This document shows, piece after piece, positions 5,091 through 28,513 of a stretch of DNA of 35,823 bases; the stretch's first letter is position 1, and each line of letters begins with the position of its first letter. Both the position numbers and the translations under genes were made by a program. Source of the DNA: Rhodanobacter sp. (GTDB lineage Bacteria > Pseudomonadota > Gammaproteobacteria > Xanthomonadales > Rhodanobacteraceae). The stretch lies in contig DAHUXL010000027.1 in NCBI GenBank assembly GCA_027307195.1, positions 1 to 35,823 on the forward strand. Reading direction: 5' to 3'. The notes under the pieces were generated by a model that saw nothing but the letters and a program-made list of their open reading frames with translations, was not told where the DNA came from and made no database searches.

Positions 5091-5741
5091 ATGGCCTACA
5101 AGCATTTCGAAGCGATCGAGAAACACGCCGGCCTGCTCGGCATCCTGATCGCGATCATGGTGTCGCTGGGTGGTCTGGCCGAGATCACCCCGCTGTTCGT
5201 CGAGGCGCATACGCTCAAGGCACCGGCTGGCGTGCATCCATACGATCCGTTGCGGCTGATGGGCAAGGACGTCTACGTGCGCGAGGGCTGCTACCTGTGC
5301 CACTCGCAGATGATCCGCGCGCTGCGTTTCGAGACCCAGCGTTATGGTCATTTCTCGACCGCCGCCGAGTCGGTCTACGACCGCCCGTTCCAGTGGGGCT
5401 CCAAGCGCACCGGGCCGGATCTGGCGCGGGTCGGTGGCAAGTACTCCGATGACTGGCAGCGCATGCACCTGATGAATCCACGTCAGGTCGTGCCGCAGTC
5501 GAACATGCCCGGCTATCCGTGGCTGGCGCACGACAAGATTGACGCCGCCGATGTGCAGGCGCGCATGCGCACCCTGCGCCGGCTGGGCGATCCGTACAGC
5601 GACGCCGACATTGCCGGCGCGCCGGCTGCGGTGGAAGGCAAGACCGAGATGGATGCATTGATCGCCTATCTGCAAGGCCTGGGCATCCGCAACGAACCCG
5701 CACCGACCGCTGCAGCGGCCAGTGATGGAGCCGCGCCATGA
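5091..5741 (+). CDS. ccoO: cbb3-type cytochrome c oxidase subunit II (monoheme cytochrome c)
   Basis: CcoO is the membrane-anchored monoheme cytochrome c subunit that passes electrons towards CcoN. The 216-residue protein has one N-terminal membrane helix (about residues 13-32) and a periplasmic domain. The single heme c motif is CYLCH at residues 67-71, and the likely axial Met is in SNMPGYP near residue 139. The GPDLARVGGKYSD block is typical of the family. The ATG at 5091 sits behind GAGGACGAG, and the stop overlaps the ccoQ start in ATGA (5738-5741). Confidence 0.96.
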   Translation: MAYKHFEAIEKHAGLLGILIAIMVSLGGLAEITPLFVEAHTLKAPAGVHPYDPLRLMGKDVYVREGCYLCHSQMIRALRFETQRYGHFSTAAESVYDRPFQWGSKRTGPDLARVGGKYSDDWQRMHLMNPRQVVPQSNMPGYPWLAHDKIDAADVQARMRTLRRLGDPYSDADIAGAPAAVEGKTEMDALIAYLQGLGIRNEPAPTAAAASDGAAP

Positions 5742-5926
5742 CGCCCATGAACCCGGCCTGGGGCCACATCGCCGGCGCCATCATCCTGCTGATGATGTTC
5801 ACCTTCATCGGCATCTGGATCTGGGCCTGGCGCAAATACCACAAGCCCACGTTCAATCGCATGGCGCGGTTGCCGATGGAAGACGAAGCCGTGGCCGCTG
5901 CCGATACCAAAGAGGATCGTCCATGA
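5738..5926 (+). CDS. ccoQ: cbb3-type cytochrome c oxidase small subunit (CcoQ/FixQ)
   Basis: This 62-residue, single-pass membrane protein sits in the position normal for CcoQ, between ccoO and ccoP. CcoQ is non-catalytic and helps assembly or stability of the oxidase. One hydrophobic helix (IAGAIILLMMFTFIGIWIWAW, about residues 11-31) is followed by a basic stretch and a short acidic tail, as usual for the family. Both ends overlap neighbours by four bases (ATGA at 5738-5741 and 5923-5926), indicating translational coupling. Identification rests on position, size and topology, because CcoQ sequences are poorly conserved. Confidence 0.9.
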   Translation: MTPMNPAWGHIAGAIILLMMFTFIGIWIWAWRKYHKPTFNRMARLPMEDEAVAAADTKEDRP

Positions 5927-6834
5927 GTACGGGCTGGTCGTTGTGGGTGATGTTCCTGGTGGTGCTGAACATGGGCATCACGTTCTTTCTGTACCTGTGG
6001 GGACCGCGCGCAAAGATCCCGACCCTGCCCGACGGCACCAGCGGTCACGTGTGGGCCCATGGTGTGCTGCGCGAAGGCGTGCGCAAGTTGCCACTGTGGT
6101 GGGTGCTGTTCTCGGGATCGATGTTCGCCGCCGGATTCACCTACCTGGCGCTGTTTCCCGGTTTTGGCAGCTTCAAGGGTGTGCTGGGCTGGACCTCGCA
6201 CGGCGAACTGGCGCGCAACGTGGCGGCCAACGAGGCCACGCTCGCGCCGTTGATCGATCGCTTCAGGCTGTACCCGGTCGAACAGCTGGCCAATGATCCG
6301 GCCGCGCAGCAGATGGGCAAGGTGCTGTTCGAAGACAACTGCGCCGCCTGCCACCAGCGCAGCGCGAAAGGCAACGTGGCGCTCGGCGCGCCCGATCTGA
6401 CCGACAACGACTGGTTGTACGGCGGCAGCGGCAAGGACATCACCACCTCGATCCACGACGGCCGTAACGGCGTGATGCCGCCATGGGCCAGCCTCGGCGC
6501 GGACAATGTGAAGAACCTTGCGCAATACGTGCTGAGCCTGTCCGGCTCGCCGCACGACGAGGCCAAGGCCGCCGCCGGCAAACCGCTGTTCGCCACCTGC
6601 GCTGCCTGCCACGGTGCCGACGGCAAGGGCAATCCGGCGGTGGGCGCGCCCAACCTCACCGACCGCATCTGGCTGCATGGCGGCAGCGTGGCCGAGATCG
6701 AAAAGACCATCGGCGAGGGTCGCCAGGGCCATATGCCGGTGTGGAGTCCGCGACTGACCGACGACCAGATCCACACCGTCGCCGCCTACGTCTATCACCT
6801 GTCGCACGATGCCGATGCTGCCAGCAGCCAATGA
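5923..6834 (+). CDS. ccoP: cbb3-type cytochrome c oxidase subunit III (diheme cytochrome c)
   Basis: CcoP takes electrons from soluble or membrane cytochromes c and passes them to CcoO/CcoN. The 303-residue protein has two N-terminal membrane segments (about residues 5-26 and 58-78), followed by two class I cytochrome c domains in the periplasm. Heme motifs are CAACH at 140-144 and again at 226-230; probable axial Met residues lie in GVMPPW (185) and HMPVW (271). The ATG at 5923 overlaps the ccoQ stop. A longer open stretch upstream in this frame runs through ccoQ and is not real. The next gene probably starts inside its last 26 bases. Confidence 0.96.
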   Translation: MSTGWSLWVMFLVVLNMGITFFLYLWGPRAKIPTLPDGTSGHVWAHGVLREGVRKLPLWWVLFSGSMFAAGFTYLALFPGFGSFKGVLGWTSHGELARNVAANEATLAPLIDRFRLYPVEQLANDPAAQQMGKVLFEDNCAACHQRSAKGNVALGAPDLTDNDWLYGGSGKDITTSIHDGRNGVMPPWASLGADNVKNLAQYVLSLSGSPHDEAKAAAGKPLFATCAACHGADGKGNPAVGAPNLTDRIWLHGGSVAEIEKTIGEGRQGHMPVWSPRLTDDQIHTVAAYVYHLSHDADAASSQ

Positions 6835-7048
6835 CATCGGCGCCCGCCACGGCACCGCCTGGCATCGCCAGCCGGTGCTGTGGCTGGGCGTCGTCATCTT
6901 CGTGGCCTCGCTGGCCGGTTGCGTGTGGATGATCGTACTCGGCGCGCATCACGCCGATATGCCGCTGGATACTTCGCACACCGTCTTCGGCGTCCCGGTC
7001 AGCGCACACAGCAGTCCGCCGCATCCTCCGGCCGACCCGCCGCGATGA
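6809..7048 (+). CDS. Short single-pass membrane protein, probable FixH/CcoH-like anchor
   Basis: This encodes 79 residues with one membrane helix (about residues 24-45, WLGVVIFVASLAGCVWMIVL) preceded by AWHRQP and followed by a short Pro/Ser/His-rich tail. It sits where ccoG-ccoH normally lie, between ccoP and ccoI. The Trp/Arg/Gln run before the helix resembles the start of FixH/CcoH proteins. Those are usually about 150-170 residues with a periplasmic domain, which is missing here. CcoH is required for cbb3 assembly in several bacteria, so a reduced CcoH is a reasonable inference but not proven. The start is either of two close ATGs (6809 or 6815), both inside ccoP. The end overlaps ccoI in ATGA (7045-7048). 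Confidence 0.7.
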   Translation: MPMLPAANDIGARHGTAWHRQPVLWLGVVIFVASLAGCVWMIVLGAHHADMPLDTSHTVFGVPVSAHSSPPHPPADPPR

Positions 7049-9351
7049 GCACTTCCACAGCGAGCACTTATGCAGCGAGCACTGATGCGGCCGGCACTTA
7101 CGCAGCGTGGGGCCATCCACAACTCGCCGCGCAGGTGTTGCGCCGTCGCCGCGATGGTTGCAGTGAGATCGCCCTGCGCGTCGAATCGCTGCATGACCCG
7201 CGGCAGGTGCTGTGGCTGGAGCAACGCATTCGTGCCCTGCCCGGCGTGCAGCATGTCGCTATCGATCGCCCGGCCCGACGCGTGCGGGTGGTGTGGGACG
7301 CGCAACGCACTTCGCTGCCCAGTCTGCTCGACAACTTTTCCGCCGCGCAATGCCCGGCGCAACCGCTGCAACTCGACAGCATCGACGACGCCCGCTCGCG
7401 CGAACAGCACGATGCGCTGAAGCGGCTGCTGGTCGCCGGCATGTGCGCGATGCAGGTGATGACCTATGCGTTCGTGATCTACATCGGTGTGGTCGATTTC
7501 GTCGACTTCAGCACGCGTCACCTGTTCCGCTGGCTCGGCCTGATCACTACCGTGCCGCTGGTGTTCTACTCGGCACAGCCGTTCTTCGCCGGCGCCGTGC
7601 GCGAACTGCGCGAACGCCGGCTCGGCATCAACCTGCCGGTGGCGCTGGCGGTGGCGCTGGTGTTCCTCGCCAGCACGTTCAACACGCTGCGCGGCAGTGG
7701 CGAGATCTATTTCGATTCGGTGAGCATGTTCGTGTTCCTGCTGCTCGGCGGTCGCTATCTGGAACTGCGCTCGCGCCATCGCAGCGGCGCACTCGGCGAC
7801 GCGGTGATCGACGCAGCGCCCCTGCTGGCCGAACGCCGACGCGCCGATGGCGAACTGGAAACGGTTGCCGCAATCACCCTGCTGCCCGGTGATCGCGTGC
7901 ATGTCGCCGAAGGGGGCACCGTGCCGGCGGACGGCATGCTGGAAAGCGCGTGCGTGCAGGTGGACGAGGCGCTGCTGTCAGGCGAATCCCGTCCGCTGCG
8001 CCGCGTACGTGGCGAGCGACTGATCGCCGGCAGCGTGCTGCTCTCCGGCCCTGCCGAGCTGCGCGTGGAGCACGGCGGCGCAGCCACCACGATGGCACGC
8101 CTGGGTGCGCTGGCCGCTCGTGCGCGACAGGCGCGCAGCCTGCTCGGCGGCAGCGATCGCGAGATCGGCCGCTTCGTCGGCCGCATATTGCTGCTGACTG
8201 CACTCACCGCGCTGGGTTGGCTGCTGGTCGAACCCGCGCGCGCCTTCGAGGCCGCCGTGGCTGTACTGGTGGTGGCCTGCCCCTGCGCGTTCGCACTGAC
8301 CCGCCCGGCCACGCTGACCCGCGCGCTCGGCGTGCTGGCAGGTCGCGGCGTGCTGGTCACCGATGGCAGCGCGCTGGCCACGCTGGCGCAGGTCGACCAT
8401 GCCTTGTTCGACAAGACCGGCACCCTGAGCGTGCCGCAACTGGACCGCCGCGCGGTCGAACCGCTGCGCGGCGACACGCTGGAACACGTGCTGCAACTGG
8501 CCGCCGCACTGGCCCACGAAAGCTCGCATCCGCTGGCCCGCGCGCTGGCCGAGGCCGCCCGCCAGCACGCGCTGCCGTTGCGTGCGCAGTCGGTGCAGGT
8601 CAGCGCCGGTGCCGGCATCAGTGGCGAGATCGATGGCCGCTGCCTGCGCCTGGGTCGCGCCGACTTCGCGCTCGCGCCCAGCGGCCAGCCCGTGTCGGCC
8701 GATACGGCGGGCGCGTTGCTGCTGGCCGATGCACAAGGCGCCATCGCGGCGTTCCATCTGGACGAACAACCGCGCGCCGATGCCCGCCGCATGCTCGATG
8801 CCCTGCGCGCCGACGGCATCGTGCCGACGATCGCCAGCGGCGACGGCGAAACGCGCGTGGCTACGCTGGCCAGCCGGCTCGGCATCGACAACTGGTACGC
8901 GCGCCAGTCGCCCGCCGACAAGCTCGAACGGCTGCAGGCCGCGCGCCGCGACGGTCATCTCACGCTGGCTGTCGGTGACGGCAGCAACGACGCGCCGATA
9001 CTGGCCGGCGCCGACGTCTCTGCCGCGCTGACTTCCGGCACCGAACTGGCGCAGGCGCATGCCGACCTGCTGTTGCTGGATGGACGTCTGGACGGCCTTA
9101 TCGATGCGCGAGTGATCGCCCGTCAGGTGCAACAGGTAATGACGCAGAGCCGGCGCTGGTCGCTGTTGTACAACCTGTGCGCCGTGCCGTTCGCCGCGTT
9201 CGGTTTCGTGCCGCCATGGCTGGCCGGCATCGGCATGTCGCTGAGCTCGCTGGTGGTCGTGCTGAACGCGCTGCGCGTCGGCCGCAATGAGACGCCCGTG
9301 CGCCCCGACCCGGCCAGCCCCGCGGAACGCATACGCGAGCTGCGCGCATGA
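7045..9351 (+). CDS. ccoI: Heavy-metal P1B-type ATPase for cbb3 oxidase assembly (CcoI/FixI)
   Basis: CcoI is an inner-membrane P1B ATPase that supplies copper for the CuB site of cbb3 oxidase. The 768-residue protein has an N-terminal HMA-like fold (about residues 36-85, with LPGVQHVAIDRPARRVRVVW). Its usual GMxCxxC loop reads ESLHDPRQ, so the metal-binding cysteines are gone. The core is intact: A-domain SGES at 312-315 (family consensus TGES), membrane CPC at 412-414, phosphorylation motif DKTGT at 456-460 and GDGSNDAP in the hinge. The first 20 residues form an Ala/Ser/Thr repeat (STYAAS, GTYAAW). The frame opens 55 codons upstream, but the ATG at 7045 overlapping the previous stop is the likely start. 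Confidence 0.93.
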   Translation: MSTSTASTYAASTDAAGTYAAWGHPQLAAQVLRRRRDGCSEIALRVESLHDPRQVLWLEQRIRALPGVQHVAIDRPARRVRVVWDAQRTSLPSLLDNFSAAQCPAQPLQLDSIDDARSREQHDALKRLLVAGMCAMQVMTYAFVIYIGVVDFVDFSTRHLFRWLGLITTVPLVFYSAQPFFAGAVRELRERRLGINLPVALAVALVFLASTFNTLRGSGEIYFDSVSMFVFLLLGGRYLELRSRHRSGALGDAVIDAAPLLAERRRADGELETVAAITLLPGDRVHVAEGGTVPADGMLESACVQVDEALLSGESRPLRRVRGERLIAGSVLLSGPAELRVEHGGAATTMARLGALAARARQARSLLGGSDREIGRFVGRILLLTALTALGWLLVEPARAFEAAVAVLVVACPCAFALTRPATLTRALGVLAGRGVLVTDGSALATLAQVDHALFDKTGTLSVPQLDRRAVEPLRGDTLEHVLQLAAALAHESSHPLARALAEAARQHALPLRAQSVQVSAGAGISGEIDGRCLRLGRADFALAPSGQPVSADTAGALLLADAQGAIAAFHLDEQPRADARRMLDALRADGIVPTIASGDGETRVATLASRLGIDNWYARQSPADKLERLQAARRDGHLTLAVGDGSNDAPILAGADVSAALTSGTELAQAHADLLLLDGRLDGLIDARVIARQVQQVMTQSRRWSLLYNLCAVPFAAFGFVPPWLAGIGMSLSSLVVVLNALRVGRNETPVRPDPASPAERIRELRA

Positions 9352-26078: not shown

Positions 26079-26552
26079 TCAGGCGTTATCGCGCACCCGC
26101 ATCGTCAGTCCCTTCAGAAAATTCCGCAGCAGCTGATCGCCGCACAACTTGAAATTCTTGTGGTCGGCCTGGCGGAACAGCGCACTGAGCTCCGGCTTGG
26201 AGACCGGGAAGCCGGCACTTTCGAGGATCTGGTGCATGTCGACGTCCTTCAGTTCGAACGCCACGCGCAGCTTTTTCAGCACCACGTTGTTGGTGACGCG
26301 TTTTTCCACCGGGCGCTGCGGCAGGCTTTCGTCGCGGCCGCGACGGTAAAACACCAGGCCGTCGAGGAAATGCGCCAGCGCTGCGTTGCTGCATTCGACG
26401 TAACCCGGCTCCTCGTCCTTCTTCAGGAATGCCTGCACGTCTTCCTTCGCGATCGGAAAATTCGGATCGGCCAGATGGGTGATCTCCACCACCTTGCCGT
26501 CGCTGAGGTCGAGCATGTAGCGAATGGCGCGCAGTACGTCGTTGTTGATCAT
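26079..26552 (-). CDS. YehS family protein (DUF1456)
   Basis: The 157-residue product carries two related DUF1456 units. The first begins MINNDVLRAIRYMLDLSD and the second RVTNNVVLKKLRVAFELKD near residue 85. Each unit includes a PxxKxDxxAFL-like helix (FPIAKEDVQAFLKKDEEPGY and FPVSKPELSALFRQADHKNF) and a conserved DGLVFYRRG / NFLKGLTMR end. The E. coli homologue is YehS, of unknown function. The protein is soluble with no signal peptide. It converges with the secreted protein gene and diverges from the sigma-factor locus, so it is probably transcribed alone. Confidence 0.9.
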   Translation of the reverse strand: MINNDVLRAIRYMLDLSDGKVVEITHLADPNFPIAKEDVQAFLKKDEEPGYVECSNAALAHFLDGLVFYRRGRDESLPQRPVEKRVTNNVVLKKLRVAFELKDVDMHQILESAGFPVSKPELSALFRQADHKNFKLCGDQLLRNFLKGLTMRVRDNA

Positions 26553-26659
26553 GTCGTTCCGATGGAGCTCGCTGAGGGCGCCATGTTACCGCGCGGCGAT
26601 CAACCCCGTTTGCGTCATGCCCGCGTTTCATCTTTCACGAACCGGAGGAGAACCGCCCC

Positions 26660-26728
26660 ATGAATGTGAAAGCACTGCAACACGGCCGGCTGTATGGCCA
26701 GGCTGGCAACAGCAGGGGCGTGCGCTGA
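26660..26728 (+). CDS. Possible 22-residue leader peptide upstream of the ECF sigma factor
   Basis: A very short frame starts at ATG 26660 behind a near-perfect Shine-Dalgarno (GGAGGAG, 26644-26650, nine bases upstream) and stops at TGA 26726. The peptide begins MNVKALQHGRLYGQ and ends RGVR. It has no recognisable homology. The ribosome binding site is among the strongest in the window, and the frame sits 100 bases before the sigma gene, with a hairpin between them. It could be a translated leader or simply a decayed gene start. Confidence 0.35.
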   Translation: MNVKALQHGRLYGQAGNSRGVR

Positions 26729-26761
26729 GGTTTCCGGCCCCGCTGCGCGGACCGCGGCTGT

Positions 26762-26789
26762 GACTGCAGGCATGCTCCCCGCTGCAGTC
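26762..26789 (+). promoter_or_regulatory. Hairpin in the leader of the ECF sigma gene
   Basis: GACTGCAG (26762-26769) and CTGCAGTC (26782-26789) are perfect inverted copies around a 12-base loop. The element lies between the small leader frame and the sigma-factor start. It could be an mRNA hairpin affecting translation, or a DNA operator. There is no T-run after it, so a simple terminator is unlikely. Confidence 0.4.
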
Positions 26790-26828
26790 CTCCCCCGCCG
26801 CCAGCGCGCAACGGGGTCGGAGCTGGTG

Positions 26829-27434
26829 ATGACTTCTCCGTTACCTGCCGACAGGCGATTTGGCTTACGCTCACTTCCCATGGATGCTGCGGTCGACCCC
26901 GATGCAATGCTGATGCTTGCCTATGCACGCGGCGACCTCGCCGCGTTCGAGGCGCTGTATGTGCGTCATCGAGGCATGCTGTACCGGTTCCTGCTGCGCA
27001 GCGTGCGCGACCCGCACCGTACCGACGAGTTGTTCCAGGAAACCTGGAGTCGGGTGATCAGCGCGCGAGCACGCTACCAGCCACAGGCGAAGTTCAGCAC
27101 CTGGCTGCTGCAGATCGCGCACAACCTGATGATCGACAGCGCCCGCCGCCAGCGACCGATGGCCGATGGCGACGAAGGCGAGATCGCGCTGGCCAACGTG
27201 GCCACACCGGAGCAGGAACAACCCGATCACACCCTGTCCGAGTTCCAGCGCCGCCGCGGTCTGCAGCGCGCGATCGAACAGTTGCCGGACGAACAGCGCA
27301 CCGCCGTGCTGCTTCGACTGGAGCAGGAACTCAGTCTGGAGGAGATCGCCACGGTTACCGGCGCCCGCCGCGAGACGGTGAAGTCGCGCCTGCGCTATGC
27401 CATGACCCGATTACGCGAAGTGCTGTCCGAATGA
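26829..27434 (+). CDS. ECF-type RNA polymerase sigma factor
   Basis: The 201-residue product has sigma-70 region 2 (AYARGDLAAFEALYVRHRGMLYRFLLR, then RTDELFQETW and FSTWLLQIAHNLMIDSARR) and region 4 (IEQLPDEQRTAVLLRLEQELSLEEIATVTGARRETVKSRLRYAM), with no region 3 or long N-terminus, so it is an ECF-type factor directing RNA polymerase to a small regulon. ATG 26829 is chosen because GGAG lies six bases upstream. ATG 26880 (MDAAVDPDAM, 184 residues) is a plausible alternative without a ribosome binding site. The stop overlaps the next gene in ATGA (27431-27434), typical of a sigma/anti-sigma pair. Confidence 0.92.
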   Translation: MTSPLPADRRFGLRSLPMDAAVDPDAMLMLAYARGDLAAFEALYVRHRGMLYRFLLRSVRDPHRTDELFQETWSRVISARARYQPQAKFSTWLLQIAHNLMIDSARRQRPMADGDEGEIALANVATPEQEQPDHTLSEFQRRRGLQRAIEQLPDEQRTAVLLRLEQELSLEEIATVTGARRETVKSRLRYAMTRLREVLSE

Positions 27435-28513
27435 CTACCCGACTGCCACCGCAAGGCCCACCAGAGCCCGACGAAAAGCTGCCCGGAGAAGGCGAGCTGG
27501 CGGCGCTGTATCGCCAGCTGCCGAAGAGTGAACCGAGTCCGGCACTGGACGCGGCCGTGCTGCGTGCCGCGGCGCAGGCGCTGGCACCCGACGAAGCAAA
27601 TCCGACGGTGCTGGGGGCTGAACGCGAACGCGGCGGCGAGACACTCCCGAAATCGAACATTTCATCGCTGGCTGCGTCAGCGTCTGCAGGCGGCGCCCGG
27701 AGAAGGCCACGCTGGCCGATCGCGCTGGGCAGTGCCGCCACCCTGGTACTCGCTGCCGGGCTCGCCTGGCACATGCGCGAATTGCCTTCGGCCACATCGA
27801 CACCCACAGAGATGGATAGCGCAGCACCGGCACAGGCCACTGCAGCTGCGTCGCTGCCGCGTGCAACGCCGCCCGTCGCAGCGATGCAGTCGGCGGAACC
27901 TGCGCCCTCCTCCTCGCCGATGAAGCCACCCGAACAATCGTCACCGGAAATGGTGGTCGCACCATTGCGCGCGTCAACGACCAGTGCTTTGCGCAAGGCC
28001 ATCGCCGACCAAGCAGCGGAACGCACCTCCAGCAAGGCCAAGGCAGCCGGCGAGTCGCGTCAGTACGCTCCGGCCCCGATGGCTGCGCCCGCTCCGCCAT
28101 CCGTGGCGCTGCAAGAGACGTCCAGCAACTCGGTCGAGCCCGCGTCGAAAATGCCCGTGACGAGGGCCGCTCCGGCGCCGGCCGCGCCGCCTGCGGATGA
28201 AACCACGGCCCCGCAAGCCGCCGGCGTTTCCGCAACGAATGCCGCCACCACGCCAACCCCGGACGAAGCCGCGCCCGTGGCGCCCCGCGTGCGAGCAAGG
28301 ATGCCGGTGGCGCCGACGCCATTCACGCCCGCTGCCGGCATGGACACCACTTCGTACGCCAGCGATACGCCAGCGCAGGAGCTGGACAAGATCCGCCAGT
28401 TGTTCGCGCTGGGCCATGATGACGAAGCGCAGCAGCGACTGACCGCCTTCCACCTCGCACATCCGCGCTGGGATCTGCCACTGGATCTGCAGGCGAAACT
28501 GCGCAAGCCATGA
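27431..28513 (+). CDS. Pro/Ala-rich single-pass membrane protein, candidate anti-sigma factor
   Basis: The 360-residue product has a soluble N-terminal part (about residues 1-93) with LAALYRQLPKSEPSPALDAAVLRAA, one membrane helix (about 97-113, IALGSAATLVLAAGLAW), a long Pro/Ala/Ser/Thr-rich low-complexity stretch (about 120-310), and a short helical C-terminus (ELDKIRQLFALGHDDEAQQRL). The cytoplasm-in, periplasm-out layout and the ATGA overlap with the sigma gene fit an anti-sigma factor. No zinc-binding HxxxCxxC is visible, so the call rests on position and topology. The stop overlaps the YigZ gene start in ATGA (28510-28513). Confidence 0.75.
   Translation: MTTRLPPQGPPEPDEKLPGEGELAALYRQLPKSEPSPALDAAVLRAAAQALAPDEANPTVLGAERERGGETLPKSNISSLAASASAGGARRRPRWPIALGSAATLVLAAGLAWHMRELPSATSTPTEMDSAAPAQATAAASLPRATPPVAAMQSAEPAPSSSPMKPPEQSSPEMVVAPLRASTTSALRKAIADQAAERTSSKAKAAGESRQYAPAPMAAPAPPSVALQETSSNSVEPASKMPVTRAAPAPAAPPADETTAPQAAGVSATNAATTPTPDEAAPVAPRVRARMPVAPTPFTPAAGMDTTSYASDTPAQELDKIRQLFALGHDDEAQQRLTAFHLAHPRWDLPLDLQAKLRKP

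Follow-up and report, generated by a model that had tools for sequence, protein, structure and literature searches.

What does a very short reading frame followed by an inverted repeat do just ahead of a gene for an ECF sigma factor? We addressed this question at a locus in a 35,823-nucleotide stretch of Rhodanobacter DNA (hereafter, the window), in which a 22-codon open reading frame (ORF; 26660–26728, + strand) preceded by the Shine–Dalgarno sequence GGAGGAG (26644–26650, +) lies between a divergent DUF1456 gene on its left (26079–26552, − strand; PF07308, E = 3.1e-53) and an ECF sigma factor gene. An earlier note, made from the sequence alone, had read the short frame and the repeat as a leader peptide and hairpin that place the sigma gene under translation-dependent control. 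We favour another reading, to which we give a probability of roughly 0.6: the hairpin is a conserved RNA element of the 3′ UTR or intercistronic region of a yfbK-like transcript, has outlived its gene and is not a leader of the sigma gene.

Origin of the 22-codon reading frame

Both the ORF and its upstream GGAGGAG are present in the sequence, as had been reported. When 60 genomes were searched at the DNA level, the left-hand and right-hand portions of the ORF region lay ~1.8–2 kb apart in many genomes of the same genus, separated by a gene for a YfbK-type lipoprotein of ~590 amino acids with PF12034 (YfbK_C), PF12450 and VWA domains. The intact yfbK-like gene begins with MNVKAL or a similar sequence behind the same Shine–Dalgarno site that precedes the ORF, and its terminal TGA has the same context as the stop codon of the ORF (26726–26728, +). 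With the DUF1456 gene as landmark (present in 44 of 45 Rhodanobacter genomes), a PF12034 gene was found at the locus in 17 of the 45 genomes and the ECF sigma factor in 23; PF12034 had no match in the window's genome, which is 90% complete. Six genomes carry the sigma gene and lack PF12034, namely the window's genome, G014, G016, G007, G018 and G019. The first five retain relic ORFs of 22, 31, 22, 18 and 18 codons, respectively, and G019 has no relic start, stop or hairpin. As judged from these comparisons, the 22-codon ORF is the scar of an in-frame deletion that joined the start of a yfbK-like vWA lipoprotein gene to its stop. Further upstream, a 21-genome alignment revealed a conserved box, GCGTTTCATCTTTCAC (26623–26638, +), ahead of the yfbK-like gene. 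It is a possible promoter core of that gene, and at up to one mismatch the window's genome holds no second copy.

The supposed leader peptide is thus better described as a remnant. DNA identity among the relics (56–70%) does not exceed that of third codon positions in the sigma gene (70–85%), so the peptide sequence is not conserved; of the peptide frame that the earlier note had wished to see kept in relatives, only the open frame itself survives, with start, frame and stop intact in 5/5 relics. A crude neutral simulation gave a probability of 0.0005–0.03 for five open relics out of five with three effective lineages, and a lower one with five. We regard this as suggestive only, because the Shine–Dalgarno sequence is weak or lost in two of the five relics (by eye), one start codon has changed from ATG to GTG, and stretches as short as these are frequently open in other frames as well. 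Between G000 and G016, pN/pS was 0.28/0.44 for the relic and 0.06/0.35 for the sigma gene.

How often the yfbK-like gene was lost depends on the tree consulted. The rpoB tree permits a single loss for G014, G016, G007 and G018 (AU p = 0.42; 66% of 200 bootstrap trees), with rpoB recovered in 19 of 23 genomes and missing from G000, G063, G019 and G066. By contrast, a local tree built from the sigma gene and the adjoining stretch behind it rejects placing the five relic genomes in one clade (p = 0.0003), and likewise the six obtained when G019 is added. As the conflict between the two trees may come from recombination, we refrain from inferring that in-frame deletion happened several times independently.

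Erosion extends to the sigma gene, which is absent from 22 of the 45 genus genomes. When ten of these were read at the locus, four still had the conserved box that stands ahead of the sigma gene, together with sigma fragments or the sigma start, remnants which indicate that the locus erodes repeatedly within the genus. Decayed sigma genes lie near the DUF1456 start at L182, L183, L184 and L188 (G013, G031, G064 and G060), where the conserved box and an MDA start remain and most of the sigma gene is gone. At L187 (G068), a GGAG and a variant form of the box upstream of yfbK lie beside the DUF1456 start, with no sigma or YfbK match left.

Structure and conservation of the hairpin

The inverted repeat noticed earlier, GACTGCAG (26762–26769, +) and CTGCAGTC (26782–26789, +) separated by 12 nucleotides, is perfect. 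It cannot be regarded as significant by itself: 35 perfect 8-bp repeats with loops of 3–20 occur in the window, and 20 dinucleotide shuffles gave 32 on average (sd 7). What the earlier note had missed is the long stem around it, which makes the repeat the tip of a ~95-nucleotide hairpin of three helices (26729–26823, +). The outer helix pairs 26732–26750 with 26804–26822, its innermost pairs being the least regular; the middle helix pairs 26754–26758 with 26797–26801; and the two arms of the repeat form the apical helix. Folded alone, the 95-nucleotide unit had a z score of −3.5, with 0 of 200 shuffles as low, and only 4 of 1,787 windows of 95 nucleotides sampled every 20 bases on the + strand folded at least as well. 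Positions 26644–26850 folded as one piece were unexceptional (z = −1.2; 27 of 200 shuffles as low). Elsewhere in the window, the most stable hairpin among the + strand windows sampled, of ~20 bp, lies at 6801–6940 (z = −6.4) and overlaps the starts of the ORFs at 5215–6897 (−) and 6880–9351 (+).

Compensatory stem changes, which the earlier note had proposed looking for in relatives, were found. Among 19 genomes, 15 of 32 pairs changed on both sides (41 cells versus 10.9 in shuffles; 0/500 as high), and with four outside sequences added (23 in total) this rose to 20 of 31 pairs (64 cells versus 16.9; 0/500); all five pairs of the middle helix have two-sided changes. These shuffles ignore relatedness among the genomes; in a control that retains it, sliding the pairing partners lowered pairing from 90% to 32–51% (19 genomes). 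The 19-genome alignment, A1, leaves out G002, G025 and G026, which have the yfbK-like gene and no match to the element, as well as G019; the 23-sequence alignment, A5, leaves out G303, which is 93.6% identical to L072 over 3,320 bases, and G286, which has the L074 sequence. A shorter apical form, left unpaired in the alignment, occurs in 8 of the 19 training rows. Comparison of sequences thus strongly supports the three-helix hairpin as a real structure held by compensatory changes.

The strand on which it acts is less sharply indicated. Core pairs comprise 24 G·U against 8 A·C, and all pairs 38 against 19, which argues modestly for action as + strand RNA; the reverse complement is at least as stable as the + strand fold in 12 of 19 rows. 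Within the hairpin, the sequence UCCCC in the 3′ internal loop (26791–26795, +) is present in all 24 copies (22 + 2) and is unpaired in the predicted structures. A second UCCCC in the apical loop (26776–26780) is not general among the copies. Pairing of UCCCC with the yfbK Shine–Dalgarno sequence was weighed by eye and dropped.

A covariance model, R1, trained with the window included, scored the window's element at 98.4 bits. It found the element in 19 of the 45 genus genomes, each time at a single place. Every one of these carries the sigma gene: they comprise 14 of the 17 genomes with a yfbK-like gene and 5 of the 6 that have the sigma gene and lack the yfbK-like gene, and none of the 22 genomes lacking this sigma gene gave a match. 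Outside the training set, the model also found L072, L073 and L074 (Dyella and Frateuria), and a search of 299 genomes drawn from the order added three more matches, all of one further genus code, one of the three being the L074 sequence; stricter filters, which lose weak matches, applied whenever more than 40 genomes were searched. The non-training copies in five Dyella- or Frateuria-type genomes (L072, L073, L074, L233 and L234) occupy the same place: each begins at the TGA of the yfbK-like gene and has the sigma gene on its downstream side. In all 24 copies examined, the stop is TGA and the hairpin lies directly behind it at a fixed distance.

The element is nevertheless dispensable, as its absence from G002, G025 and G026, which keep the yfbK-like gene, and from G019, which has lost both, indicates. 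More widely, 18 of 31 yfbK-bearing loci gave no model match (15 of the 18 from Luteibacter, Oleiagrimonas and Bordetella); some of these have other hairpins and others almost no spacer. At the Luteibacter loci L082, L084 and L122, different long perfect hairpins of unrelated sequence stand behind the yfbK-like stop. The yfbK–sigma spacers of G014, G002, G025, G033 and G034 contain other palindromes, of the form CCCTCCCCTGC..GCAGGGGAGGG, which resemble a repeated element.

Across the five relic genomes, the hairpin is 71–86% identical, and the spacer behind it 40–67% with long gaps. Taken alone, these genomes show two-sided changes in 6 of 32 pairs, with 10 of 500 shuffles as high, and such compensatory changes may be older than the loss of the gene. 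That the hairpin survives in five genomes lacking the gene favours a role independent of the YfbK protein.

Start and promoter of the sigma gene

The earlier note had placed the sigma start codon at 26829, behind a GGAG that follows the repeat. We reject this start as unique to the window: in the other 22 sigma-bearing genomes compared, no start codon stands at that spacing, whereas all 23 share the ATG at 26880. Residue 5 of the protein started at 26880 aligns with position 6 of the NCBIfam profile NF009166, which the protein matches above the cut-off together with PF04542 and PF08281, so the gene likely spans 26880–27434 (+). The next ORF (27431–28513, +) overlaps its stop and, from its position, probably encodes an anti-sigma factor; it has no Pfam or NCBIfam match, is rich in Ala and Pro, and varies among relatives.

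No Shine–Dalgarno-like motif occurs in the 16 bases ahead of the ATG at 26880. Instead, a conserved stretch abuts it (26852–26879, +) that includes a −10-like TACGCT at 26866–26871, 8 nucleotides before the ATG. The box TTA(A/C)(C/G)CTC precedes the sigma gene in 23/23 genomes (by eye), and the TAnnnT part of the sigma box, 8 nucleotides before the ATG, is retained at Dyella, Luteibacter, Oleiagrimonas and Bordetella loci. A conserved −10-like box without a Shine–Dalgarno sequence points to a leaderless transcript, and the main sigma transcript probably starts at 26880 from its own promoter, without the hairpin. The earlier note had itself counted transcription starting downstream of 26789 against a leader role, and the start suggested here, near 26880, lies beyond that point. 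Consensus scans of 26400–27000 gave no sigma-70-type promoter and no intrinsic-terminator-like site (loops of 3–8 only). As a regulon-wide promoter motif the box was rejected, its core matching once per genome in 8/8 genomes (this pattern only, at most one mismatch).

Function of the element and comparison with known RNAs

In the reading we prefer, the ancestral locus comprised the DUF1456 gene (−), the yfbK-like lipoprotein gene (+), a structured spacer and the ECF sigma gene (+). An in-frame deletion in the window's lineage removed nearly all of the yfbK-like coding sequence; the upstream box, the Shine–Dalgarno sequence, the original stop codon and a relic of 22 codons were left. Transcribed from the old yfbK promoter, the hairpin would act at the RNA level. 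Its most likely task would be to form the 3′ end of the upstream transcript and protect it, and it would also separate that transcript from the sigma gene, whose mRNA most likely begins at its own promoter, at 26880. Genome comparison supplies the footing for this scheme: the relic itself, a conserved structure that always sits at the same place behind the stop, and the sigma start codon. Differential-decay structures of E. coli operons, placed mostly inside coding regions according to passages of PMC5927463, offer a precedent that, with the position behind the stop, makes 3′-end protection a good fit.

A role in trans through the constant UCCCC comes second to 3′-end protection. The hairpin would then be a small regulatory RNA, derived from the yfbK-like 3′ UTR or, in the window's genome, making up most of a short transcript, whose UCCCC pairs with G-rich ribosome-binding sites, a reading we consider possible but unlikely. 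Persistence of the hairpin without the yfbK-like gene and the invariant internal-loop motif fit a regulatory RNA of the C-rich kind; the precedent is sX13 of Xanthomonas, whose C-rich loops, in passages of PMC3771888, act on G-rich motifs close to starts. However, the consensus scan found no terminator-like site at the hairpin end, and UCCCC may be conserved because a protein or the fold requires it. We also entertain, tentatively, the idea that a protein gene was whittled down to an RNA gene: in this Rhodanobacter lineage, the yfbK-like frame would have collapsed in frame to 18–31 codons, the upstream box and structured 3′ element would form a stand-alone regulatory RNA, and the sole use of the mini-ORF would perhaps be to deliver a ribosome to the hairpin foot.

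Translation-coupled control, the idea of the earlier note, ranks below both 3′-end protection and a C-rich RNA and has the least support of the three. It supposes that the relic is translated and that a ribosome ending at 26726–26728 opens the foot of the outer helix, altering RNA stability or sigma expression. The proposed layout holds in so far as a conserved stem stands directly behind the TGA at a fixed distance, and the intact frames, with their low simulated probabilities, and the relic pN/pS between G000 and G016 lean the same way; but the peptide is unconserved, ribosome-binding and start signals have weakened in some relics, alternative frames are often open, G019 has lost relic and hairpin entirely, the sigma gene seemingly has its own promoter, and the sigma gene's pN/pS for the same two genomes also weighs against this control. 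These points make it improbable. Least probable is a neutral or DNA-level palindrome (a REP-like or recombination site) lying in the spacer by chance. Other palindromes do occur in the same spacer of related genomes and the reverse strand folds equally well, yet such an origin sits poorly with one place per genome, compensatory changes and a constant site behind a stop codon. Our preferred reading remains an RNA element of the yfbK-like transcript that survived the gene.

The supposed leader peptide thus gives way to a well-supported RNA structure that is unmatched in Rfam 15, and for an ECF sigma gene the start is corrected from 26829 to 26880. The genus also provides a natural series (gene and hairpin, hairpin and relic, gene without hairpin, neither), which offers a direct test of whether a 3′-UTR RNA outlives its gene and keeps its function.

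We compared the element with known RNA classes. At the gathering thresholds of Rfam release 15 there were 0 matches in the window, L166, L163, L178 and L172, and membership of the hairpin in an Rfam family was rejected; a lax scan of 26560–26900 returned SECIS_3 at 20.6 bits (gathering score 63), Xoo5 at 15.2 (50) and two microRNA families, all far below threshold. An intrinsic terminator was rejected, with 0 sites in 26400–27000 and no T run after 26823, as was a REP or repeated palindromic element, given one place per genome in 19/19 positive genus genomes (stricter filters). Leader-peptide or attenuation control places a short ORF ending beside a hairpin ahead of another gene, and the locus shares this arrangement; it differs in that the ORF is a gene relic whose peptide differs from relic to relic and derives from the deleted gene, in that the consensus scan showed no U-tract terminator, and in that the sigma promoter is seemingly the gene's own and leaderless, so a leader-peptide attenuator with a conserved peptide was set aside. 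Among the matches listed in a search of the open-access literature by title and start of abstract, none describes the element.

Two known systems come closer. As a stable, conserved RNA structure between cistrons, positioned so that it could protect upstream RNA, the element has the structural feature expected of an intercistronic protective hairpin and resembles the puf mRNA decay terminator and the E. coli differential-decay structures (PMC5927463). Unlike the decay structures in the passages of that source, it has three tiers and a constant unpaired UCCCC, outlasts its upstream gene, and is known from sequence alone. It also has the conserved unpaired C-rich motif of an sX13-type RNA. sX13 itself, in passages of PMC3771888, consists of three stem-loops whose C-rich loops are apical and is a demonstrated transcript at polA, whereas our element is one long hairpin with its motif in an internal loop, lies beside an ECF sigma gene and is predicted from sequence; on that description, the two nevertheless share strong structure, CCCC exposed outside the helices and the same bacterial order.
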